From a virus: a DNA stretch of 22,325 nucleotides. Below are positions 2,840-22,325 of this stretch, piece by piece. The notes beneath the pieces were generated by a model. The model saw nothing but the letters and a program-made list of their open reading frames with translations. It had not been told where the DNA came from and searched no databases. The position numbers were made by a program, and so were the translations under genes. The stretch lies in the IMG/VR virus record IMGVR_UViG_3300032298_001112, positions 1-22,325 of that record. The stretch is one strand, 5' to 3'. Each line of letters begins with the position of its first letter. Position 1 is the stretch's first letter.

Positions 2840-3191
2840 AATTTGTTTTTCACACGATAAAGCACGAACTATTGCAATTGACCTTACACGAGGTGATTCA
2901 GCTATTGCTGAATTGAAAGTTGTAAACAAGATGGTATGGCAGTTAAATGAAAAAATTGACGCCAAAGATAGCACAATTAGTATTTACGTATCTAAAGAAA
3001 AAAATTATCTTAAGCAAGTAGCAGACTATGAAAAGATTGTTACTGTACAAGATACTGTAATTAAAGGATTAGAAAAAGACGTTAAAGATCTAACTCGCAA
3101 AAACACTAACTTAAAGAAAGGTATTAAATGGTTAGGTGGAGGATTCGTGTCTTCCATACTTATTCTTCTTACATTTACCATAATTAAGTAA
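2763..3191 (+). CDS. Secreted, C-terminally anchored protein, possible spanin partner
   Basis: The 142-residue product opens with a typical signal peptide: MATKLK, a hydrophobic core LLVLLIL, then SSSSFSQ with likely cleavage before Q21. Signal peptides ending in SQ or AQ are common in Bacteroidota. A coiled-coil-prone middle follows (about 40-118), and the C-terminus is a second hydrophobic helix (about 124-141, GGGFVSSILILLTFTII). There is no lipobox cysteine, so it is not a classical Rz1 lipoprotein. Two membrane-interacting ends joined by a coiled coil recall a spanin that bridges the envelope. The start at 2763 is required for the signal peptide, so the 77-base overlap with the previous gene is real dual coding. 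Its stop codon TAA shares its last base with the terminase ATG. Confidence 0.65.
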   Translation: MATKLKILLVLLILSSSSFSQTVTDKICFSHDKARTIAIDLTRGDSAIAELKVVNKMVWQLNEKIDAKDSTISIYVSKEKNYLKQVADYEKIVTVQDTVIKGLEKDVKDLTRKNTNLKKGIKWLGGGFVSSILILLTFTIIK

Positions 3192-4800: not shown

Positions 4801-6699
4801 ATGGCAGATACAGGATTATTTACACGATTAAGACGACTATTTTCAACTGATGTTATCATTCGAAACGAAGGAGATAACCAATTGAAAGTATTTGATATAA
4901 ACAAAATCCAAATTTCAGGTGAATACGAAACTAATGCGTTAGTAGATAGATTCAATCGTATCTATACTAACTCACACACCTCAATTTATGGATATCAAAG
5001 CAGCTTTAATTACCAAACTTTACGCCCCACACTTTATTCCGAATATGATTCAATGGATACAGATGCTATCATTGCTTCTGCCTTAGATATCTTATCTGAT
5101 GAAAGTACATTACGTAATGATATGGGTGAAGTGTTACAAATTCGCTCATCTGATGAAGATGTACAAAAAATTCTATACAATTTATTCTATGATGTATTAA
5201 ATGTAGAATTTAACTTATGGCCTTGGATTCGTAATATGTTGAAATATGGTGATTTCTTTTTAAAACTAGAAATTGCTGAAAAATTTGGTGTGTATAATGT
5301 AATTCCTTACAATGCATTCCATATTGAAAGACAAGACGGATACGATAAAGATCACCCAAATTCAGTACGTTTTCGCTTTGACCCCGATGGTATTTCATCA
5401 CCTTCAGATTATGGTTATTATAATGTTCCAAACTCTGGTGGTCAAGCAAATTCAATATATTTTGACAATTATGAAATGGCACATTTCCGTTTATTAACGG
5501 ATACTAACTTTTTACCTTATGGTAGATCATATTTAGAGCCTGCTCGTAAATTATTTAAACAATATATTATGATGGAGGATGCGATGTTGATTCACCGTAT
5601 TGTTCGCGCACCTGAAAAACGTATATTCTATATCAATGTTGGAAACATTGCACCTGCTGAGGTAGAAAACTTCATGCAGAAAACAATTTCCAAAATGAAA
5701 CGTACTCCTTATATTGACCAACAAACTGGTGATTATAACTTGAAGTACAACATGCAAAACCTACTTGAAGACTTCTACATCCCAGTACGTGGTAATGATC
5801 AAGCAACTAAAATTGATAATTTAGCAGGTTTACAGTGGCAAGGTATTGAAGACGTTACCTACTTACGTGATAAATTATTTGCTGCCCTTAAGGTGCCTAA
5901 AGCATTTATGGGTTACGAAAAAGATTTGACTGGTAAAGCTACATTAGCTGCTGAAGATATTCGATTTGCACGTACAATTGAACGTATTCAACGTATTGTA
6001 GTATCTGAGTTGACTAAAATTGCATTGGTTCACTTATATGCTCAAGGATATCGTAACGAAAGCATGACAAACTTTGAATTATCATTAACTACACCTTCAA
6101 TTATTTACGATCAAGAAAGAGTAGCATTAATGAAAGAAAAAGTTGATCTAGCTACTCAGATGATGGAAAATAAAATCCTTCCTACTGATTGGATCTATGA
6201 AAACTTATTCCATTTAAGTGAAGATCAATATGATGAATATAGAGACTTACTTTTACAAGATGCCAAACGTAAATTCCGTATTGCACAAATTGAAAATGAA
6301 GGTAATGATCCACTTGAAACTGGAAAATCTTATGGTACTCCACATGATTTAGCTTCTTTGTATGGTAGAGGCAGATATGAAGCAACTAATGTACCTTTAG
6401 GTTATGATGAAGATGCTGAATTAGGCCGACCAGAAGAAAAGGTAACCGATAAAAATACCCAAGATAATGCTCTTGGAAAAGACAGACTTGGAACAGACGG
6501 TATTAAAAAAGACGGAGATGAATCAAATTCAATTAAACCTCAATATAAAGGTAACAGTCCATTAGCTCTTGAAACTAAAGGTAAACCTAATCCTAACAAA
6601 AGAATGTTTAACGATATCAAAAACCAACACAAACAAATGATTTTTGAATCAGACATTAGGGGGAATTCACTATTAGATGAATCACAAATACGAGAGTAA
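4801..6699 (+). CDS. 20: Portal protein, T4 gp20-like
   Basis: This 632-residue protein forms the dodecameric ring at the unique capsid vertex through which DNA enters and leaves and on which the prohead is nucleated. Recognisable gp20 features are a DTDAIIASALDILSDE helix (about 86-101), WPWIRNMLKYGDFFLKLE (about 140-157), and the clip-to-stem region VPKAFMGYEKDLTGKATLA (about 365-383) followed by ARTIERIQR. It is about 100 residues longer than T4 gp20. Most of the excess is a hydrophilic, probably disordered tail from about residue 510 onward, rich in K, N, D and G. No Shine-Dalgarno sequence is present; the leader is AAAATAGAAT. The position directly after the terminase differs from T4, where sheath and tube genes 18 and 19 intervene. 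Confidence 0.93.
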   Translation: MADTGLFTRLRRLFSTDVIIRNEGDNQLKVFDINKIQISGEYETNALVDRFNRIYTNSHTSIYGYQSSFNYQTLRPTLYSEYDSMDTDAIIASALDILSDESTLRNDMGEVLQIRSSDEDVQKILYNLFYDVLNVEFNLWPWIRNMLKYGDFFLKLEIAEKFGVYNVIPYNAFHIERQDGYDKDHPNSVRFRFDPDGISSPSDYGYYNVPNSGGQANSIYFDNYEMAHFRLLTDTNFLPYGRSYLEPARKLFKQYIMMEDAMLIHRIVRAPEKRIFYINVGNIAPAEVENFMQKTISKMKRTPYIDQQTGDYNLKYNMQNLLEDFYIPVRGNDQATKIDNLAGLQWQGIEDVTYLRDKLFAALKVPKAFMGYEKDLTGKATLAAEDIRFARTIERIQRIVVSELTKIALVHLYAQGYRNESMTNFELSLTTPSIIYDQERVALMKEKVDLATQMMENKILPTDWIYENLFHLSEDQYDEYRDLLLQDAKRKFRIAQIENEGNDPLETGKSYGTPHDLASLYGRGRYEATNVPLGYDEDAELGRPEEKVTDKNTQDNALGKDRLGTDGIKKDGDESNSIKPQYKGNSPLALETKGKPNPNKRMFNDIKNQHKQMIFESDIRGNSLLDESQIRE

Positions 6700-6740: not shown

Positions 6741-7604
6741 ATGCAAGTTAAACATTCAAAGTATAAAAATACGGGTATCCTCTTTGAACTTTTAGTTCGC
6801 CAGATCACCACAGACACACTGGATGGAAAGGATTCCCCGGCTAAAGATATACTTAAAAAATATTTCGTTAAGTCGGAATTGGGTCGTGAGTATAAGTTAT
6901 ATGAAACGTTACTTAAAAGAACATCATTAACTGAAGGTAAAGCAAACGTTGTAGTAGATACATTAATCGAATCTTCTAAAACATTAAATAGAGGAGCTAT
7001 TAAACGTCAAAAATATAATTTGATTAGCGAGATTCAAAAACACTATGATTTAAACGAGTTTTTTAATCACAAGCTACCAAACTATAAAATGTTTGCTGCA
7101 TTCTATACGTTAACTGAAATCGCAAGTGCTCAACATACTATTGATCCTGATCAAGCTATTAACAATAAAGTAACTATTTTAGAGCATTTAACCGCTGCTA
7201 AAATTACTGAAAGTAAAGTACGTGATGAGGTAATGGGTGAATTTGAAAAAGCGGATAAAGATGTTCGTTTTCTAGCGTATAAAATGGTATTAGAAAGTTT
7301 TAATACAAAATATAACGATTTACACCCCCGTCAAAAAGAAATTCTTAAAGAATTTATTACTTCGGTTGATAATAAACCACGTTTAAAAGAATTTTATACT
7401 GCTAAAGTAGTTGAAATTAAAGAAGAATTAACTGCATTAAATGCTCATACTAAAAATGAAGCAACCAAAATAAAAATCAACGAAATTATCAATATTATCC
7501 AAATACCAGCTAAAACAGCTAAAATTACTGATAATGATTTAGTTGACTTGTTACAGTATTATGATTTAATTAACGAGTTAGAAACTGTAAATGGAAAAAA
7601 TTAA
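6741..7604 (+). CDS. Unknown helical protein downstream of portal
   Basis: I cannot assign this 287-residue protein to a named family. It is soluble-looking, with no signal peptide or membrane span, and is rich in K, E, L, I and N with alternating helical stretches throughout. The N-terminus reads KYKNTGILFELLVRQITTD, a well-formed amphipathic helix that is the most motif-like part. It follows a candidate late promoter and overlaps the next gene by 14 bases, which suggests coupled translation. It sits between portal and prohead protease, where T4 has the small core genes 67 and 68, so a prohead core or internal head role is a reasonable guess, but sequence similarity to gp67 or gp68 is not apparent to me. 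Confidence 0.7.
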   Translation: MQVKHSKYKNTGILFELLVRQITTDTLDGKDSPAKDILKKYFVKSELGREYKLYETLLKRTSLTEGKANVVVDTLIESSKTLNRGAIKRQKYNLISEIQKHYDLNEFFNHKLPNYKMFAAFYTLTEIASAQHTIDPDQAINNKVTILEHLTAAKITESKVRDEVMGEFEKADKDVRFLAYKMVLESFNTKYNDLHPRQKEILKEFITSVDNKPRLKEFYTAKVVEIKEELTALNAHTKNEATKIKINEIINIIQIPAKTAKITDNDLVDLLQYYDLINELETVNGKN

Positions 7605-8094
7605 AGACATAATTCGCAAGAAACTAGCAGAAATGAGCGCTACCGGAATGGGTGGTGCTTCATTTACTTCTGGTCAAGGAATGAATTATGCTACCCCAAA
7701 GGCATTTAAAAAAACAAAAAATATTAAAGAAGGTCCCGGAGCAACTTTGGGAATGGGTCCAAGTGCTGGTCCTGAAGGTGTTAAAAATAATGCTTATGTA
7801 AAGCAGTTTAAATATACACTAGTACCTAAAAATCCTAAACCAAAGTCATTTGATATTAAAAAACTTTGGGAAGATGAAACACTAAACGAAATGAATGATG
7901 TTCAAAAAAGACGCATTGCTTCGTTAGACGAAATTGAAGAATTAATGAACGAAATTCAACCATTAGTTTCAAATGCAAAAAATGAAACAGTTGAATTATA
8001 TAGCGGGAATGCTGGTTCATATGATATCAATAAACCAATTGAAATAGTTTTAAGCTATTTAAAAGAAATAAAACAACTCTTATCAGAAAAATAA
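7591..8094 (+). CDS. Unknown head-region protein with capsid-like GGASFTxGQG motif
   Basis: This 167-residue protein has no family I can name. Residues 1-14 form a short charged helix ending in LAE (12-14), which fits the (L/I)xE cleavage pattern of T4-type prohead proteases. Next comes SATGMGGASFTSGQG (16-30) and NYATP, then a Gly/Pro-rich stretch to about residue 70. The C-terminal half (about 95-167) is helical and charged. Residues 12-33 align without gaps to residues 59-80 of the major capsid protein encoded at 11714. The gene starts inside the end of the previous one (14-base overlap), and its stop TAA shares a base with the next ATG. I infer an internal head or core protein that may be processed by the gp21-like protease. 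Confidence 0.72.
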   Translation: MEKIKDIIRKKLAEMSATGMGGASFTSGQGMNYATPKAFKKTKNIKEGPGATLGMGPSAGPEGVKNNAYVKQFKYTLVPKNPKPKSFDIKKLWEDETLNEMNDVQKRRIASLDEIEELMNEIQPLVSNAKNETVELYSGNAGSYDINKPIEIVLSYLKEIKQLLSEK

Positions 8095-9824
8095 TGAAAA
8101 AGACATTACAAGATCAGTATTTGTTAATCAAAGAAGGTAAAGGGCACATTGGTGTTTTCCTTACAGAGGCAAAACGCGAATTTCCTCATATTGTACGCAA
8201 TGCTGCTACGTTTGATGAAGCAGTAGCATCACTCAAAACAAAAAACATTATTTCAGAAAATGTACTTTCTGTAATACCTGCTATGATGGATCGTCCTAAA
8301 AAAGAATCTTACGAAACTGCTTTTGAAGCATTTTTAGCTGAAGCAAAAAAGAAAAATGAAGACGAGAAAGTTAAAGCAGAAGAGAAAAAAGTTTCTAAAC
8401 CTGTAGAAGAAGACCTTGAAAAAGCATTCAATTACTCAGATGAAAAAAACCCTGATAACATGATCTTTGATCAAATTATGACGGGTTACTATGCTGAAAT
8501 GAAAGATCCTAAAAATAGTGATAAAACGATGCAAGAATTAAAAGACATCGTATTTAAAAATTTATCAAAAGATCAAATTTATTATACTAAAAATGCTCAA
8601 TTTGGAGTTAAAGACTTAGGATATGTAACTGAAGCACCTGGTTTAGGTGAACCAAAAGAAGCTAAAGGTAAATACAAATTTTCAGGCTATGGTGACTTAA
8701 ATGAAGGTGTAGAAAAATTTATGTCAGATGTTAAAGATGCTATAACTAAAAAAGGTGATAAAAAATTCTCACCTGAAGAAATTAAAGCTAAATTAAAGCA
8801 AAAACGCGAAGAAGAACTTAAACGTAGAAAAGAATCAGGTGAATCACTTGAAGAACTTTCTGTTCGTAAAGCTATTCAAGAAATGATTGATAATGAAATG
8901 GAAGAAGCGTATCAATTAGTAAATATTAATCCACAAAAAAGCGATAAAGAAAGAGGTGAAAGAGAACCACAACCTTTTAAAATGTCCTATGTTGATCCTT
9001 CTGTAATAGATTCACTTACAAAAAATCAACATTTAAGAATCCTTAGAAGCCCATCTAACCCAGAAAATATTACGCTTGCTATTCGTGCTAGATTTGTTCC
9101 AACATCTGCTAAAAATGTAGGAAAAAATACAGATAATCTAGATAAACTCCCACTAGATATCCCATCAGATTTTAAAAACTTTTTAACTGATAAAAATAAT
9201 ATCACTGGAGAAAAACAACTTCCAACTAAAGAAGGAGTTACTGAATTATATAAAATTCTTAGTAATGCTACTTTGAACAAAAACGGTAGTCTTGTGTTAA
9301 AAGTTCCAAATCCAAATTATGAAAAAACAATGGAATCTTTACAAGAAAGTGTTGAAAAAGATTTAGCTGATATTAACAAAGAAGCAGAACATGAAGTTTT
9401 ACAAGCTAAATTAGATAAAATTGATGCTTTAATTGACCATAGACGTTCTAAACTTACTAAACTTGACGAAGATGAGGATATGAAAGCCTTAACTGACAAG
9501 AAAAAAGTTAAAGAACTTGAAAAAGACATTAAAAAATTAGAAGTAGCTCGTAAAAAAGTTGAAAAAATGATGTCGAAATTCAAAGGTAAAAAATCAACTT
9601 CTAAAGATGTAATTGATGAAGTAGAAGATGACGAAGAACTTCCACTTGAAACCCCAGCAGAAGCATCAGCTGAATATTTAGAATATAAAGAAGATGCTGA
9701 AAATCGTTACGATGCTGGAGAAAGTATTGATTCAATTCTTGACAACTATAATAATATTTCTCAAGATATGAAAGATATGCTTCGTAATGATCTAGAAGGT
9801 AAAATGGACGGAATGGATTATTAA
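8094..9824 (+). CDS. Large charged coiled-coil protein, possible prohead core component
   Basis: The 576-residue protein is not one I can name. Residues 1-55 form a compact-looking N-terminal part (YLLIKEGKGHIGVFLTEA, then FDEAVASLK). Residues 80-125 are K/E-rich. The central part to about 400 contains moderately conserved-looking segments and a likely globular region (about 285-400). Residues 405-500 are a long coiled coil dominated by K, E, L and D, and the last 75 residues are acidic. High charge, coiled coil and location between portal and protease fit a scaffold or core protein acting with the gp22-like scaffold, but this is inference from context. Its start overlaps the previous stop by one base, and it ends 2 bases before the protease ATG. 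Confidence 0.72.
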   Translation: MKKTLQDQYLLIKEGKGHIGVFLTEAKREFPHIVRNAATFDEAVASLKTKNIISENVLSVIPAMMDRPKKESYETAFEAFLAEAKKKNEDEKVKAEEKKVSKPVEEDLEKAFNYSDEKNPDNMIFDQIMTGYYAEMKDPKNSDKTMQELKDIVFKNLSKDQIYYTKNAQFGVKDLGYVTEAPGLGEPKEAKGKYKFSGYGDLNEGVEKFMSDVKDAITKKGDKKFSPEEIKAKLKQKREEELKRRKESGESLEELSVRKAIQEMIDNEMEEAYQLVNINPQKSDKERGEREPQPFKMSYVDPSVIDSLTKNQHLRILRSPSNPENITLAIRARFVPTSAKNVGKNTDNLDKLPLDIPSDFKNFLTDKNNITGEKQLPTKEGVTELYKILSNATLNKNGSLVLKVPNPNYEKTMESLQESVEKDLADINKEAEHEVLQAKLDKIDALIDHRRSKLTKLDEDEDMKALTDKKKVKELEKDIKKLEVARKKVEKMMSKFKGKKSTSKDVIDEVEDDEELPLETPAEASAEYLEYKEDAENRYDAGESIDSILDNYNNISQDMKDMLRNDLEGKMDGMDY

Positions 9825-9826
9825 TT

Positions 9827-10459
9827 ATGAGCAAGCAACTCTTAATAGAAACTAGACACTTTAGCCCAAAACCACTTTCATTGTTGGAAGGGATGAAAAC
9901 TAATGGAAATGTTTTCGTTGAAGGTATATTAGCTACTGTTGAAGTTAAAAATGGTAATGGCCGTTATTATCCTAGAGAATTGTGGGAACGTGAAATCGAC
10001 AACTTTGCACGTAAAATCCAACAGAGATCCACTGAAACATGTGGTGAATTAGACCACCCAGACTCACAAGTAATTAACCTTAAAAATGCATCTCATGCAA
10101 TACGTGAATTGTACTGGAAAGGTGATGAAATATGGGGTAAAGTAGAAATTTTCTCTGATATGGGTGACCTAGGTACTTCTTCAGGCCGCATAGCAGGTGC
10201 ATTAGTTAGAAATGGTTTATTAATTGGAATTTCTTCTCGTGGAATGGGTTCATTAAAACAAGTAGGTGAAATAATGGAGGTACAAGACGACTTCGAATTA
10301 TTAACTTGGGATTTAGTTTCTAACCCATCCAACCCAGATTCATGGATGAAAAACGGTGCATTAAATGAATCTCGTACTACATATTTAGACTCATACGCTA
10401 AAACAAATTCACTTATTACCGAAATTTTGTGTGCTAAAGGCACGTGTCCAATATTTTAA
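9827..10459 (+). CDS. 21: Prohead core protease, T4 gp21-like
   Basis: This 210-residue serine protease would cleave scaffold, capsid and core proteins during head maturation. Typical features are NGNGRYYPRELW (42-53), the catalytic His in GELDHP (H77), and the catalytic Ser in LIGISSRGMGS (S136 or S137), followed by a WDLVSNPSNP segment (161-170) usual for this family (peptidase U9/S77). The size matches T4 gp21 (about 212 residues). The start at 9827 lies 2 bases after the previous stop and lacks a Shine-Dalgarno sequence. The gene is followed within about 25 bases by a strong terminator, so it closes the transcription unit that carries the terminase and portal genes. Confidence 0.92.
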   Translation: MSKQLLIETRHFSPKPLSLLEGMKTNGNVFVEGILATVEVKNGNGRYYPRELWEREIDNFARKIQQRSTETCGELDHPDSQVINLKNASHAIRELYWKGDEIWGKVEIFSDMGDLGTSSGRIAGALVRNGLLIGISSRGMGSLKQVGEIMEVQDDFELLTWDLVSNPSNPDSWMKNGALNESRTTYLDSYAKTNSLITEILCAKGTCPIF

Positions 10460-10482
10460 AATATGCAAACCGGTGAAAAATT

Positions 10483-10509
10483 GCCCTCTTTTTGAGGGCT
10501 TTTTTTTTT
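10483..10509 (+). terminator. Rho-independent terminator after prohead protease
   Basis: A six-pair GC-rich stem, GCCCTC with GAGGGC (10483-10488 and 10494-10499), closes a TTTTT loop and is followed by ten T residues (10500-10509). Confidence 0.92.
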
Positions 10510-10552
10510 CTTTGCGACTTTAACGTGTTTGCTACATACATATAACTCGAAT

Positions 10553-10582
10553 ATGCCACCTCCCTCATATCTTATGTGGCAT
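10553..10582. repeat. Inverted repeat ATGCCAC / GTGGCAT
   Basis: Perfect 7-base arms (10553-10559 and 10576-10582) flank a 16-base spacer in the 188-base gap between protease and scaffold genes. No T-tract follows, so it is not an intrinsic terminator. It may be an operator or, if transcribed, a leader hairpin. The rest of the gap upstream of it (10511-10552) shows nothing recognisable. Confidence 0.5.
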
Positions 10583-10585
10583 CGA

Positions 10586-10593
10586 TATAAAAA
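10586..10593 (+). promoter_or_regulatory. Weak late-promoter-like box TATAAAAA
   Basis: The box matches TATAAATA at seven of eight positions, 54 bases before the scaffold ATG and downstream of a terminator, where a promoter for scaffold and capsid genes is expected. The window is AT-rich, so a chance match is quite possible. Confidence 0.35.
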
Positions 10594-10600
10594 ATTCTAT

Positions 10601-10620
10601 TACGTTTCTTAATAAACGTA
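10601..10620. repeat. Inverted repeat TACGTTT / AAACGTA before scaffold gene
   Basis: Perfect 7-base arms (10601-10607 and 10614-10620) surround a CTTAAT loop, followed by TTTTCCC, 27 bases before the scaffold start. If transcribed from the box at 10586, it would form a 5'-leader hairpin that could stabilise the message. The short T run makes a weak terminator or attenuator an alternative. Confidence 0.45.
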
Positions 10621-10647
10621 TTTTCCCAACAAAATAATTTAGGAAAA

Positions 10648-11685
10648 ATGGCAACAAACAGAGATTTGCTCAAAGAAGCAATTGCTGATGCTAAAGCTGT
10701 TAAAGAAACTGCTATCGCAAACGCAAAAGCCGCTCTAGAAGAAGCCTTCACACCTCAAATGCACGCTATGTTTGCCGCAAAACTTCAAGAAATGGAAAAA
10801 GAAGATGTTGAAGAAATGTACGGTAAATCTGAAGATGAAAAAATGGAAGAAACTAAAGACATGAAAATGGATGAAGTTGATGAAGTTTATGAAGCTGAAG
10901 ATGACAAACTAGAAGAACTTGATTTGGAAGAGCTTTTACGTGAGCTAGAACTAGAAGAAGGGGAAGAAGTTGAAGAAGCCTTAAACGAAGCCGAAGAAGA
11001 GGAAGAAGAATCTGAAGAAGAGGAAGAAGAATCTGAAGAGGGTGAAGACGAAGGTGAACCACTTGACCTCGAAGACATGACTGACGAAGATCTTAAATCA
11101 ATGATTGAAGATGTTATCAAAGACATGATTGAATCAGGCGAACTTGAAGCTGGCCACGAAGGTGGTGAAGAAGAGGAAGCCGAAGAAGTAGGAATTGAAG
11201 ATGAAGAAGAAATTAATCTAGAAGAATTGCTTCGCGAAATCGAAGAAACGGAAGAAATTGATTCTTTAGAAGAGGCTAAAAAGAAAAAAGAAGAGAAAAA
11301 AGAAGAGAAAGAAGAAGAAGACAAGAAAAAAATGAAAAAAGATCTTGACGAAGCTTATTCTGTAATTAATTCTCTTAAAGCTGAATTGAATGAAATTAAT
11401 TTGTTAAATGCTAAATTGCTTTATACAAATAAAATCTTCAAATCTAAAAACTTAAACGAAAACCAAAAAGTGAAAGTGTTAAGTTCTTTTGACAAAGCAA
11501 CAACTGTAGGTGAAGTTAAGATGGTGTTTGAAACTTTAAACGAGGGTATTAAAGTTAAAAAAGACACAATCAAAGAAAACCTAGGTAGTGCTTCAAAAGC
11601 AATGGTAACACCAAACGCTAAAAAACCAATCGTAGAGTCAAACGAGGCATTTGCAAGAATGCAAAAATTGGCTGGAATTATTTAA
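10648..11685 (+). CDS. 22: Prohead scaffold/core protein, T4 gp22-like
   Basis: This 345-residue protein has the form of the major internal scaffold that guides capsid assembly and is then degraded. The N-terminus is a helix ending in ALEEAFTPQMHAM (about 28-40), as I recall from gp22 of marine T4-like phages. Residues 80-215 are extremely acidic, with long Glu runs. A lysine-rich switch follows (about 211-230), then a C-terminal helical block (about 233-345, including LLNAKLLYTNKIF and VGEVKMVFETL) ending in FARMQKLAGII. The length exceeds T4 gp22 (about 269 residues), mainly through the acidic region. It lies between protease and capsid genes exactly as in T4. A weak AGGA lies 4 bases before the ATG. 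Acidic low complexity makes most of its length unreliable for homology search; the ends are more useful. Confidence 0.88.
   Translation: MATNRDLLKEAIADAKAVKETAIANAKAALEEAFTPQMHAMFAAKLQEMEKEDVEEMYGKSEDEKMEETKDMKMDEVDEVYEAEDDKLEELDLEELLRELELEEGEEVEEALNEAEEEEEESEEEEEESEEGEDEGEPLDLEDMTDEDLKSMIEDVIKDMIESGELEAGHEGGEEEEAEEVGIEDEEEINLEELLREIEETEEIDSLEEAKKKKEEKKEEKEEEDKKKMKKDLDEAYSVINSLKAELNEINLLNAKLLYTNKIFKSKNLNENQKVKVLSSFDKATTVGEVKMVFETLNEGIKVKKDTIKENLGSASKAMVTPNAKKPIVESNEAFARMQKLAGII
10993..11034 (+). repeat. Perfect 21-bp tandem duplication in scaffold acidic region
   Basis: Two identical 21-base units (10993-11013 and 11014-11034) each encode six Glu and one Ser. Identity even at the single GAG codon indicates a recent slippage or duplication event within the scaffold gene. 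Confidence 0.9.
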
Positions 11686-11713
11686 TTTTTTAAACAAAAA
11701 ACAAAAACAGAAA

Positions 11714-13429
11714 ATGTCAAACATTAATTCTCTTTTAGAAAGCGCAGCATCTGGATGGAAAAACATGCAGAGCGACGCAGCTCGTATGGCCTCAAAATGG
11801 GCTAAAACGGGTCTTTTGGAAGGATTGAGCACAGAAGTTGAAAAAAACAACATGGCTTTGATCCTCGAAAACCAAGCAAAACAACTTGTTGTTGAGCAAT
11901 CTTCTACAAACGTAGGTGGTGCTACTTTTACAGTAGGTCAAGGTGAACAATGGGCTGGTGTAGCTCTTCCATTGGTACGTAAAGTATTCGGTTCTTTGTC
12001 AACTAAAGAATTCGTTTCTGTACAACCAATGAATTTGCCTTCTGGTCTTGTATTCTTCCTAGATTTCCAATATGGTGATGCTAACGGTAAAGCTGCTCCT
12101 TCTGGTCCTTTTGGTCCTGGTGGTGACACTTATGGTGCTACTTCATCTATGTACGGTAATACTAACCCAGGAACTGCACTTGATGCTTCACAAGGTTTAT
12201 ACGGTGCTGGTCGATTTGCATACTCAATCAACCAATTCTCAGCTTCTGTATCTACAACTCGTGGAACTGCTCTTTGGTCTGATGTAGAGTATGATGCAAC
12301 TTTATCTGCCTCTGTTGCTGCTGGTAACTACTCAAAAGTTACAGTTACTATGCCAACAACCCCAGGTAAACTTCCAGATTACAAAGGTGTTCGCGCATTC
12401 ATATTAGCTTCAGGATCAGTTGCTGCTCCTCAAGCTGTACCAGTTTCTAACTTGTTACCACAATATACTACTACTAACGGTACTTCAACTGTAACCTTCA
12501 TTTACTCAGGTTCAGCAACAGGCCTTAACGGTGGTGTACCAGGTACAGGTTCAGGTGCTACTAACAACTATGTATTCTACAACGTTCAACCACAAGATAA
12601 CTACCGTGGTGATTTCGAAGATAACAGCGGTGCTGGTTACCCTAACGCTGATTCTACAGGTGCTGATCAATTAGCAATTCCACAAATCAATATCCAAATG
12701 AAATCTGAGGCTATTGTTGCTAAAACTCGTAAGTTGAAAGCACAATGGACACCAGAATTCGCTCAAGATTTGAACGCATACCAATCTTTGGATGCTGAAG
12801 CTGAATTGACTTCAATCATGAGCGAGTATATTGCATTGGAAATCGATCTTGAAGTATTGGATATGTTAATCCAAGATGCTAATGCATGGGATGAGTACTG
12901 GAACGTAGCAAACAACCAACAATTGAATTCTAACCAATCAGGTTATACTGATCTTGGTTTCTTCAACACACAAGGTCAATGGTTCCAAACTTTAGGTACT
13001 AAAATGCAGAAAGTTAGTAACAAAATTCACCAAAAGACTTTACGTGGTGGTGCAAACTTCATCGTAACTTCTCCAAGTGTAGCAACTATCCTTGAATCAA
13101 TCCCAGGATTTGCTTCATCTTCTGATGGTGATGTAACTAAAGCTAGCTATGCATTTGGTATCCAAAAAGCTGGTCAAATGAATAACCGTTACACAGTTTA
13201 TAAGAATCCTTATATGACTGAAGGTTTAATGTTAATGGGTTACCGTGGTTCACAGTTCCTCGAAACAGGTGCTGTATTTGCTCCATATGTGCCATTAATC
13301 ATGACACCTCTTGTGTACGATCCAGATACATTTACTCCACGTAAAGGTCTCTTGACTCGTTACGCTAAGAAAATGATCCGTCCTGAATTCTTTGGTCGTA
13401 TCTTTATCTCTAACTTGAACCTTCTTTAA
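11714..13429 (+). CDS. 23: Major capsid protein, T4 gp23-like
   Basis: This is the 571-residue HK97-fold shell protein. The ATG at 11714 is chosen over an in-frame ATG at 11651 that would overlap the scaffold gene and add 21 unrelated residues. The first 60 residues (helical, SLLESAASGWKNM and onward) look like the gp23 propeptide. Candidate cleavage points matching (L/I)xE or similar are E52 and E61, close to Glu65 in T4. The core follows with VGGATFTVGQG (67-77), a Gly/Thr-rich insertion around 100-310, AEAELTSIMSEYIALEID, and the conserved C-terminal part from about 490 (RYTVYKNPYMTEG, MGYRGSQFLETG, PYVPL, RPEFFGRIF). The leader is A-rich without a Shine-Dalgarno sequence. A strong terminator follows 25 bases later. 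Confidence 0.95.
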   Translation: MSNINSLLESAASGWKNMQSDAARMASKWAKTGLLEGLSTEVEKNNMALILENQAKQLVVEQSSTNVGGATFTVGQGEQWAGVALPLVRKVFGSLSTKEFVSVQPMNLPSGLVFFLDFQYGDANGKAAPSGPFGPGGDTYGATSSMYGNTNPGTALDASQGLYGAGRFAYSINQFSASVSTTRGTALWSDVEYDATLSASVAAGNYSKVTVTMPTTPGKLPDYKGVRAFILASGSVAAPQAVPVSNLLPQYTTTNGTSTVTFIYSGSATGLNGGVPGTGSGATNNYVFYNVQPQDNYRGDFEDNSGAGYPNADSTGADQLAIPQINIQMKSEAIVAKTRKLKAQWTPEFAQDLNAYQSLDAEAELTSIMSEYIALEIDLEVLDMLIQDANAWDEYWNVANNQQLNSNQSGYTDLGFFNTQGQWFQTLGTKMQKVSNKIHQKTLRGGANFIVTSPSVATILESIPGFASSSDGDVTKASYAFGIQKAGQMNNRYTVYKNPYMTEGLMLMGYRGSQFLETGAVFAPYVPLIMTPLVYDPDTFTPRKGLLTRYAKKMIRPEFFGRIFISNLNLL

Positions 13430-19820: not shown

Positions 19821-22325
19821 ATGCCAAACTGGAAAAAAGTCATAGTATCGGGCTCTAATGCTGCCCTGAATTCTTTAAATCTAATCAATGGAGCTACCAT
19901 AACTGGTTCAGTTAATGTAACAGGAAGTGATATCATTTTAGCTCAAGGAAGTAATTTAGTAACTCATCACGTTAAAGCAGCAGCTTCAAATGGTACTGAA
20001 ATTCTAAACAATACGGGAGGTACCGTCGCTTTATTCGGTGCTGGAGGTTCCTTAGGTACCACGTTTTATGGACAAGTAAATGGAACAACATTTTCAGGTT
20101 CACTTTTAGGAACAGCTTCATATGCAACTCAAGCTTTAACAGCATCTAATGCTTTAACAGCATCATTTGTCAATACACTTAATCAAAATGTACTAATCAC
20201 AGGTAGTACTACAATTGGTGCATCTAGTTTAGGAGCTTCAGAAAACACATTAACTTTAGGTGCCCGTGATACTGCTAATGAAGGTGGACAAATAGGATTT
20301 AATGCACCAGGTGGTACTTATACATCAGCTTCGTTTATTGACATTTATCAAAATAGACTTAGAATACTTAAAGGTACAAATGCCGGTAGCACTGGTGAAG
20401 TTGCCAGTTGGAATCTGCATAACCTACAAATGTCATTACCAGCATATAATAGCACTTCAGCATTTCCAGGAACAGCTGCAGCTTATTTAGCAACTGATTC
20501 TGGTGGAAATCTAATTACAGTATCTGGTATTGCTGGTTCTCAAGGTGCTACAGGTGCTCAAGGTATTCAAGGTATAACAGGAACACAAGGAGCAATAGGT
20601 ACACAAGGTGCCGTTGGAACACAAGGAACAACGGGTGCAACGGGTGCTCAAGGCACAACAGGTGCACAAGGAACTACAGGTACACAAGGTGCTGTTGGAA
20701 CACAAGGAACTATTGGTACACAAGGTACAACTGGAGCCCAAGGAGTAACAGGAACTCAAGGTACAACTGGAACAACAGGTGCACAAGGTACAACTGGTGC
20801 CACTGGTTCACAAGGAGCCACTGGAGCAACAGGATCACAAGGAGCAACTGGTACACAAGGAACTAATGGTACACAAGGAGCTGTCGGTACTCAAGGTACT
20901 ACTGGAGCCCAAGGTGTTACTGGTTCACAAGGAGCTACTGGAGTACAAGGAACAACAGGTGCTACTGGGGCTCAAGGTACTACTGGAGCAACAGGATCTC
21001 AAGGTGCAACCGGAGCCACTGGTTCGCAAGGAGCTACTGGAGCACAAGGAACTACTGGTACTCAAGGTGTTGTAGGTACACAAGGAACTACTGGAGCTCA
21101 AGGTATTACTGGGTCACAAGGAACCGTTGGTACGCAAGGAACTACTGGTGCTACTGGTTCACAAGGTACTACCGGAGCACAAGGTATACAAGGTGGTACT
21201 GGAGCAACAGGCTCACAAGGAACAACAGGTGCACAAGGTACCGTTGGTACTACTGGAGCGCAAGGAACAACTGGAGCACAGGGTACACAAGGTGTAACTG
21301 GTGCACAAGGTGCTACTGGTGCTCAAGGAACCACTGGAACACAAGGTGCTGTTGGTACACAAGGTACTACTGGAACGCAAGGTACTACCGGGACACAAGG
21401 AACAACAGGTGCACAAGGTACTACCGGAACACAAGGAAATGATGGTTCATTTGGTGGTGCTACCTTCGATTATACATTTGATACTTCAACAGCAGCATCA
21501 GACCCTGGTACTGGTAAAGTACGATTAAATAACGCGACTGAAAACACTGCTACTGCGATGTACATTGATTCTACTACAGATCAAGGTGCAAACATAGACT
21601 CATTTTTAAATACAATTAATGCTGTATCATCAGCTATAAAAGGATATGTTAGAATTGCAAACAGAACAGATGCAACTCAATTCCTATTATTCCAGATATC
21701 AGCGTTAACTAATAATACAGATTGGTGGACATTAACTGTCACTAACCAAGCATTCTCAGCAGCTTCTCCATTTACAAATAATGAAGATATTATAGTATCT
21801 TTTGTAACTACTGGTGATAAAGGTGCACAAGGAACTACAGGTACACAAGGTGCAACTGGAGCACAAGGAACAACTGGAACACAAGGTACAGTTGGTACAA
21901 CAGGTGCTCAAGGTACTACTGGTACACAAGGTACAGTTGGTGCTACTGGATCACAAGGTGCTACTGGTGCACAAGGTACAACAGGAACGCAAGGAGCTGT
22001 TGGTACACAAGGTACAACTGGTGCACAAGGCGCAACAGGTGCACAAGGAACTACTGGTACAACAGGTGCTCAAGGTACAACTGGTACACAAGGTGCTGTT
22101 GGTACTCAAGGAACAACTGGAACACAAGGAGCAACAGGTGCACAAGGTATAACTGGAACACAAGGAACAGTTGGTACTACTGGAGCACAAGGTACAACTG
22201 GAACACAAGGTACTGTAGGTGCTACCGGATCTCAAGGTACTACTGGAGCAACAGGTGCACAAGGAACTACTGGTACTCAAGGAGCCGTAGGTACTCAAGG
22301 AACTACTGGAACACAAGGTGCAACT
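19821..22325 (+). CDS. Giant collagen-like tail fibre (3' truncated by window edge)
   Basis: The frame is open for 835 codons to the window end with no stop. Residues 1-20 ([12 protein letters not shown] and on) match the start of the fibre at 17808 and may be a shared attachment end. Residues 21-235 are Thr/Ser/Gly-rich, including [20 protein letters not shown] (about 96-115). Residues 236-542 are 102 uninterrupted Gly-X-Y triplets, almost all of A, T, Q, S, V and I. Residues 543-664 are a globular insert opening with [20 protein letters not shown] and ending near VTTGDKG, a domain I recall from other collagen-like phage proteins. Residues 665 to the edge are a second Gly-X-Y tract of at least 57 triplets. 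The product is probably a long trimeric fibre for host binding. Several reading-frame shadows occur in the repeat but are artefacts. Confidence 0.88.
20526..21446 (+). repeat. Collagen-like Gly-X-Y tract 1 (about 102 triplets)
   Basis: A 9-base periodicity with GGT or GGA at every third codon; the common triplets are [15 protein letters not shown] and GAV. I see no proline and, until the final GND, no charged residue. Synonymous codons vary freely between units. Confidence 0.95.
21813..22325 (+). repeat. Collagen-like Gly-X-Y tract 2 (at least 57 triplets)
   Basis: It begins GDKGAQGTT after the 122-residue insert and continues in the same frame and register to the window edge. The triplet types are the same as in tract 1. 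Confidence 0.95.

Follow-up and report, generated by a model that had tools for sequence, protein, structure and literature searches.

Core-shell coupling in T4-type phages, and the timing of shell expansion, are poorly understood, since core proteins are lost to degradation or lack order in structures. In T4 itself, cleavage of gp23 by the gp21 protease at E65 frees residues 66-91, the N-fist (PMC7136217), which touches four subunits, including two that belong to the adjacent capsomer (PMC9958956), shifts outward from the prohead interior upon expansion and is disordered in the five portal-facing gp23 subunits (PMC7136217; PMC9958956). Elsewhere, the 80alpha scaffold and the SaPI1 protein CpmB share a RIIK motif through which they were shown to compete for one binding site on the capsid protein (PMC5644958), and the internal protein DarA of phage P1 is cut by the prohead protease near the cut of the major capsid protein (MCP) and held on the inner shell (PMC12810830). 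In this work, we analyzed a 22,325-nucleotide fragment of an uncultivated T4-like phage (IMG/VR record IMGVR_UViG_3300032298_001112, positions 1 to 22,325; hereafter the window), which carries a head gene cluster and has its TerL gene at 3191. The MCP of this phage and a second, otherwise unrelated protein of 167 residues, here called protein A, share a segment of some 20 residues that follows a glutamate, and the two copies co-vary from phage to phage. In the open-access papers searched, where the N-fist came up in work on T4 only, we found no earlier description of a core protein that copies it.

A segment common to protein A and the major capsid protein

The shared motif reads E-x-S-x-T-x-x-G-G-A-S/T-F-T-x-G-Q-G-x-x-Y/W-A and, glutamate included, lies at 7630-7692 in A and at 11894-11956 in the MCP, within one codon of the positions given in an initial annotation made from the DNA alone. 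That annotation had claimed a gapless alignment between two proteins unrelated elsewhere, and both points were borne out: residues 11-34 of A align without gaps with MCP residues 58-81 at 12 identities (12/26 in a BLASTP of the pair), and neither BLASTP nor sliding MCP windows revealed similarity between A and the MCP upstream or downstream of the motif. The 23-mers starting at LAE and VVE share 12 identities, whereas 100,000 shuffles averaged 2.0 and never gave more than 9, and the Smith-Waterman score of the A/MCP segment, 63, exceeds every one of 20,000 shuffles (mean 21.3, standard deviation 3.8, maximum 47). When all 125 open reading frames (ORFs) of the window were scored against the MCP segment, A was the sole non-MCP match (63, the next being 31 and the shuffled maximum 37). 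No other head protein with the motif was found in the window, in four records of 136-166 kb or in the 41.6-kb region of Flavobacterium phage immuto; a 1,567-residue repeat-rich tail protein of G008 scored 48, slightly above its own shuffled maximum of 43, which we took as low complexity.

Within the MCP, the shared segment corresponds in sequence position, as judged by profile alignment, to the N-fist region. An MCP-family profile aligned to mature T4 gp23 (gp23*) places the region behind E61 opposite the region behind the T4 E65 cut; the alignment begins 12 residues past that cut, within the N-fist, and sets T4 residue 77 opposite MCP residue 64 or thereabouts, with about ten extra residues at the beginning of the T4 segment. 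E61 is invariant in a 29-sequence alignment. The AlphaFold model of the MCP, with a mean predicted local distance difference test (pLDDT) score of 51, was too poor to use for the structure of the N-fist.

Co-variation of the two segments across related phages

Protein A is encoded in a slot between two conserved neighbours, X287 and Y576. From 250 loci in which the MCP segment was paired with slot proteins, 166 representatives of <92% MCP identity were retained. The slot protein matched the MCP segment of its own phage, at a score of 40 or more, in 129 of the 166, a fraction that is no prevalence estimate since the set was partly chosen by the A-type pattern; identity averaged 60% over 20 residues. 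The P1 glutamate was aligned in 117 of the 129 matched phages and at most two residues off in 127, and the A side carried L, I, M or V at P3 in 108 of 117 matched relatives. Class switches were found in both proteins of the same phage: NNTISSNSSFVSNGQGENWA (TISSNSSFVSNGQGEN) in the MCP with TNTISSNSGFISGGEGENHT (TISSNSGFISGGEGEN) in A of L416, GQSENWA with GQSENYA in L420, TGTGASFAAGQGEQWA (TGTGASFAAGQGEQW) with TGTGASFSPGQGEQYA (TGTGASFSPGQGEQY) in L300, and ANTTGTGASFTPGTGEQYA with MSTTGTGASFTPGVGAQYA in L380.

The initial annotation had proposed that co-variation of the motif be checked among homologues, and the outcome was strongly positive in clade permutations, tree pairs and column tests alike. 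Permutation over the 13 clades of X287 gave an own-pair value of 12.4 against 1.7 +/- 2.0, and none of 2,000 permutations reached the observed value; the result was likewise 0/2,000 with 41 and with 74 clades, and 156/2,000 with four clades, too few for power. The effect was confined to the MCP window starting at the cleavage glutamate, all other MCP windows being null. Among disjoint pairs of relatives, own pairing was the better one by 56:5 at 30-70% identity and by 34:19 in closer pairs, and branch-disjoint pairs on the X287 tree gave a sign-flip p of 0.00025 (0.0012 in the worst of 200 pairings), with control windows null. Position by position, P2', P4', P5', P6', P11', P14', P17' and P18' agreed more within a phage than between clades (permutation p 0.002-0.006). 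Single binary traits on the tree pointed in the same direction, with too few independent changes for significance alone, and the segment lengths of both proteins were paired as (19,19), (21,21) and (18,18), with a rho of 0.22 obtained from a noisy regular expression for the A end.

Where the MCP has lost the Phe core, an A matching it at the score threshold was present in 0 of 11 phages, as against 129 of the 155 others (Fisher 2e-8, not tree-corrected). As regards mere presence of the motif, L290 is an exception, with a standard motif in its A and none left in its MCP. The pair takes a third state in the clade of L092, L093, L102 and L103, with the MCP segment QTDQGGFAA(A/N)GG(A/N)GAQWA and a slot protein without the mimic.

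These results bear on two explanations that need no functional tie between the copies. The first is a chance likeness of two Gly/Ser/Thr-rich disordered linkers, with co-variation due to shared ancestry alone; both segments are indeed low-complexity and variable, and clade structure is strong. However, composition-keeping shuffles never reach the observed score, the clade and tree-pair tests are positive with other MCP windows null, and the matched switches lead to quite different classes. Chance or a clade effect was rejected on these grounds and is hardly credible. The second derives the A segment from the MCP N-terminus, as a copy inherited by common descent or refreshed by recombination, which the gapless alignment from the same glutamate and the own-pair similarity would allow. 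Nevertheless, the motif DNA is only 56% identical between A and MCP in the window (mean 62% in the phage set), the same codon is used at 7 of the 12 identical residues against 7.1 expected from codon usage (a rate of 0.504 against 0.530 in the phage set), and similarity is missing on both flanks. Codons are therefore shared no more than at random, which excludes recent DNA exchange and indicates that selection acts on the protein; the initial annotation, from differences at synonymous sites, had already argued against a recent copy. Recent gene conversion was thus rejected, an ancient common origin, though conceivable, would leave the continuing co-variation unexplained, and this whole group of explanations appears improbable.

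Candidate roles of the shared segment

We favor the reading, to which we give a probability of roughly 0.57, that A belongs to the prohead core and that cleavage by gp21 gives it an N-terminus resembling the N-fist of the MCP, with which it docks in the same socket of the shell. That the copies change together suggests that both segments plug into one socket: a socket formed by the MCP would impose any change on the two copies alike and hence make them co-vary. The amphipathic N-terminal segment of A, replaced by a longer domain in relatives, would take the protein into the core, where gp21 would cut it after Glu14, as it would cut the MCP after Glu61, so that the new N-terminus is the mimic of the N-fist. 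The cleaved form, A*, would be retained in the virion and would either occupy the N-fist sockets of the shell or contend for them, and the docked mimic would tie the helical C-terminal part of A to the shell during or after expansion. As to the choice of sockets, we put forward, as a tentative and rather less likely extension, that A* is a stand-in for the N-fist that fills partnerless sockets, for instance portal-facing ones or those at pentons, and so times or stabilizes expansion or fixes a vertex-specific internal structure. If this were true, residue-by-residue coevolution of a core protein with the maturation arm of the shell would represent a new kind of core-shell coupling.

Correlations between the A motif and other parts of the system favor a shared shell docking site over shared protease recognition. 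The A motif correlated with the MCP motif when X287, the MCP body and the protease were controlled (r = 0.60, p 0.002) and with the MCP body when X287 and the protease were controlled (r = 0.19, p 0.002). For the protease, with X287 and the MCP body controlled, no correlation was seen (r = 0.02, p 0.23); as Mantel-type p-values are optimistic on related sequences, the contrast between MCP body and protease carries more weight than the p-values themselves.

The same contrast speaks against an extended protease recognition, in which the gp21 of this lineage would read about 20 prime-side residues and both substrates would have to match. Both motifs do start right behind a glutamate with a hydrophobic P3, and the initial annotation was right that this glutamate fits gp21 specificity: the LAE of A conforms to the L/I-x-E rule of T4, and the MCP glutamate corresponds to the T4 E65 site, even though its VVE, with Val at P3 throughout, deviates from that rule. 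A gp21-type protease is expected to cut the scaffold and other core proteins too, yet no other head protein in the genomes and loci scanned has the motif, and some lineages keep it in the MCP alone. Furthermore, T4 gp21 is reported to require only L/I-x-E, with few other determinants in related proteases (PMC9026906). We consider an extended recognition unlikely. Among the head signals envisaged by the initial annotation, shell binding fits best, given that the MCP segment lies in the N-fist region, whereas a processing signal fits worse, since L/I-x-E is reported to suffice in T4, the protease is not tracked and no other carrier was found in the genomes and loci scanned.

A role before cleavage was considered too, in which one core partner, for example the gp22-like scaffold, would bind both segments and it would be this partner, not the shell, that they coevolve with. 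Both are inside the prohead before maturation (PMC9958956), beside presumed targeting helices. In T4, however, capsid targeting sits in the propeptide upstream of the cut and not behind it (PMC9026906), and the correlation of the A motif with the MCP body also argues against a core partner. We consider this alternative unlikely too, on a par with an extended protease recognition.

Several observations weigh against the docking of A in N-fist sockets. An intact MCP motif occurs together with a slot protein without it in L099, L317 and L318, and with a shortened A form in L362, L365, L366, L371, L374 and L379 and in L381 and L382. As several lineages thus keep the MCP motif without an A copy, docking is not essential and the A mimic is dispensable, and the strict expectation of the initial annotation, that neither protein would have the motif alone, fails. 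A plain sign test did not reach significance in the closest sister pairs (28:19, p 0.24), since little separates many of them. Besides, no such mimic was found in T4 gp67/gp68 or in core proteins of S-RIM8, P-SSM5 and ACP17, a comparison set of T4, two cyanophages and one Acidovorax phage in which the S-RIM8 N-fist boundary was a guess; T4 gp21 gave a score of 38 (95% shuffle value 32, shuffle maximum 41). T4 biology therefore gives no direct precedent. By analogy with T4, where the N-fist comes to lie on the outer side of the expanded shell, docking would demand that the N-terminus of A pass through the shell or stop at its inner face. The optimistic Mantel-type p-values and the partly pattern-based choice of phages count on the same side.

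The slot of protein A, its surroundings and known systems

The gene order around A is portal, X287, A, Y576, gp21, gp22 and gp23 (Table 1). From its N-terminus, A consists of a 14-residue predicted helix ending in L-A-E, the motif, TPKAF, a predicted unordered stretch and a helical hairpin. The AlphaFold2 model, of low confidence (mean pLDDT 58), has helices at 2-17, 103-139 and 147-165 and an unordered middle, and a fold search with the partial model returned no significant match.

Table 1. Coordinates of the head gene cluster and of the segments of protein A and the MCP
Feature	Position	Strand	Basis
Portal, gp20 family	4801..6699	+	PF07230 E = 1.4e-66
X287, conserved neighbour, independent clade marker; immuto homologue immuto26A_198	6741..7604	+	
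Protein A (167 residues), encoded in the X287-Y576 slot, ahead of the gp21 protease gene	7591..8094	+	ORF
A residues 1-14, MEKIKDIIRKKLAE, presumed propeptide for capsid targeting, with L-A-E at its end	7591..7632	+	fits L/I-x-E rule of T4 gp21 (PMC9026906)
A residues 15-34, MSATGMGGASFTSGQGMNYA, mimic of MCP N-fist	7633..7692	+	alignment and co-variation with own MCP segment
A residues 35-39, TPKAF, a further conserved stretch of A	7693..7707	+	alignment
A residues 103-165, predicted helical hairpin, best-conserved part of A family	7897..8085	+	alignment, AlphaFold2
Y576, conserved core-region neighbour (LIKEGKG..FLTEAKREFP), without motif	8094..9824	+	
gp21-type prohead protease	9827..10459	+	Peptidase_S77 E = 4.2e-27; phrog_207 E = 9.6e-48
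gp22-like acidic scaffold, without motif	10648..11685	+	gene order and composition; no family match
MCP, gp23 family, 571 residues	11714..13429	+	PF07068 E = 3.6e-75; matches T4 gp23* structures
MCP residues 1-61, presumed maturation propeptide ending V-V-E	11714..11896	+	position as T4 gp23 residues 1-65 (PMC7136217)
MCP residues 62-81, QSSTNVGGATFTVGQGEQWA, N-fist region	11897..11956	+	profile alignment with T4 gp23*

Viral contigs scanned with a degenerate DNA pattern of the A-type motif yielded at least 119 stretches, and in 77/77 new loci inspected the motif protein lay between homologues of X287 and Y576, or beside whichever of them the contig holds. With all carriers (69-357 residues or more) in one gene slot, we rejected the idea of a mobile module present in many unrelated proteins. 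The slot proteins are nonetheless very variable (69 to >350 residues). Ahead of the glutamate, a short helix in some of them is exchanged for a long domain of about 80-230 residues, often with GVKSTVTDIDPETGAISWDV, in others (for example L120, L122, L144, L176, L177); the motif is retained, as is the C-terminal helical part in most, an unusual modularity for a core protein. Among cultured phages, a tblastn with the short motif consensus found no match, and with a longer slot protein as query the immuto phages were the sole matches (E = 7e-6, motif degenerate). The immuto slot protein immuto26A_199 (73 residues) has a shortened form of the motif, STTGAVGGYLTKNAF, and the immuto MCP segment is likewise without the Phe-centred core. 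TPxAF, right behind the N-fist mimic, persists in slot proteins without the mimic (immuto, L283, L365 and L371-type), which points to a separate function for it.

The MCP matches the PF07068 profile at 254 bits, against a curated cut-off of 24.4, and its closest cultured relative is that of Flavobacterium phage immuto (56% identity). Ten records of 136-191 kb (L048, L365, L454, L446, L285, L132, L430, L252, L183 and L023) have one PF07068 gene each, and a second, gp24-like gene was not found in them with this profile; the pentons may thus consist of gp23 itself or of a vertex protein missed by the PF07068 profile. Elsewhere in the window, a 316-residue protein (1527-2477, + strand) begins with MKKSRLLEIIREEVTGALDEIL, a possible helix of the capsid-targeting type, as in A, and a similar segment, LRKVIREIIDTELGEIMYQGP, lies inside the 671-residue slot protein of L074. 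At 19821-22325 (+ strand), an 835-residue open frame with collagen-like Gly-X-Y repeats, probably a tail fibre, runs past the window end, and the minus-strand and other-frame ORFs there look like shadows of the repeat.

In sequence position, the MCP segment resembles the T4 gp23 N-fist, which sits right after the maturation cut and ahead of the N-arm. The MCP segment differs from it in sequence and in length (about 20 residues here, 25-26 in T4), and, unlike in T4, where no copy was found in core proteins, a second and unrelated protein carries an N-fist copy. The A gene lies between the portal and gp21 genes, as do those of T4 gp67/gp68, but this gap holds three genes here and two in T4, and the comparison of the A family profile with T4 gp68 detected no sequence relation (hhalign probability 0.4%, E = 0.15), so that A as a gp68 homologue has no support. 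With T4 IPI-III and Alt and their capsid-targeting sequences, A has in common that the mature protein is preceded by a short N-terminal stretch with a gp21-type site at its end; whereas the T4 propeptides share a targeting sequence, here the mature N-terminus is the shared part, and it matches the MCP.

P1 DarA resembles what is proposed for A in being a protease-cut internal protein at the inner shell, although no MCP-like motif has been described in it. The closest precedent is the RIIK pair of the 80alpha scaffold and SaPI1 CpmB, in which two different proteins have the same short motif; for A and the MCP, what was observed is co-variation of the A motif with the MCP body. RIIK is C-terminal in two scaffold-type proteins, in contrast to a mimic of the capsid protein's own post-cleavage N-terminus. 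The co-evolving 20-residue pair points to a specific core-shell contact and names the residues concerned (the eight positions listed above), which makes the contact open to testing in aquatic T4-like phages, a widespread group. Neither the RIIK pair nor P1 DarA copies the capsid protein's own maturation arm, and seeking core proteins that do so may serve as a general method.

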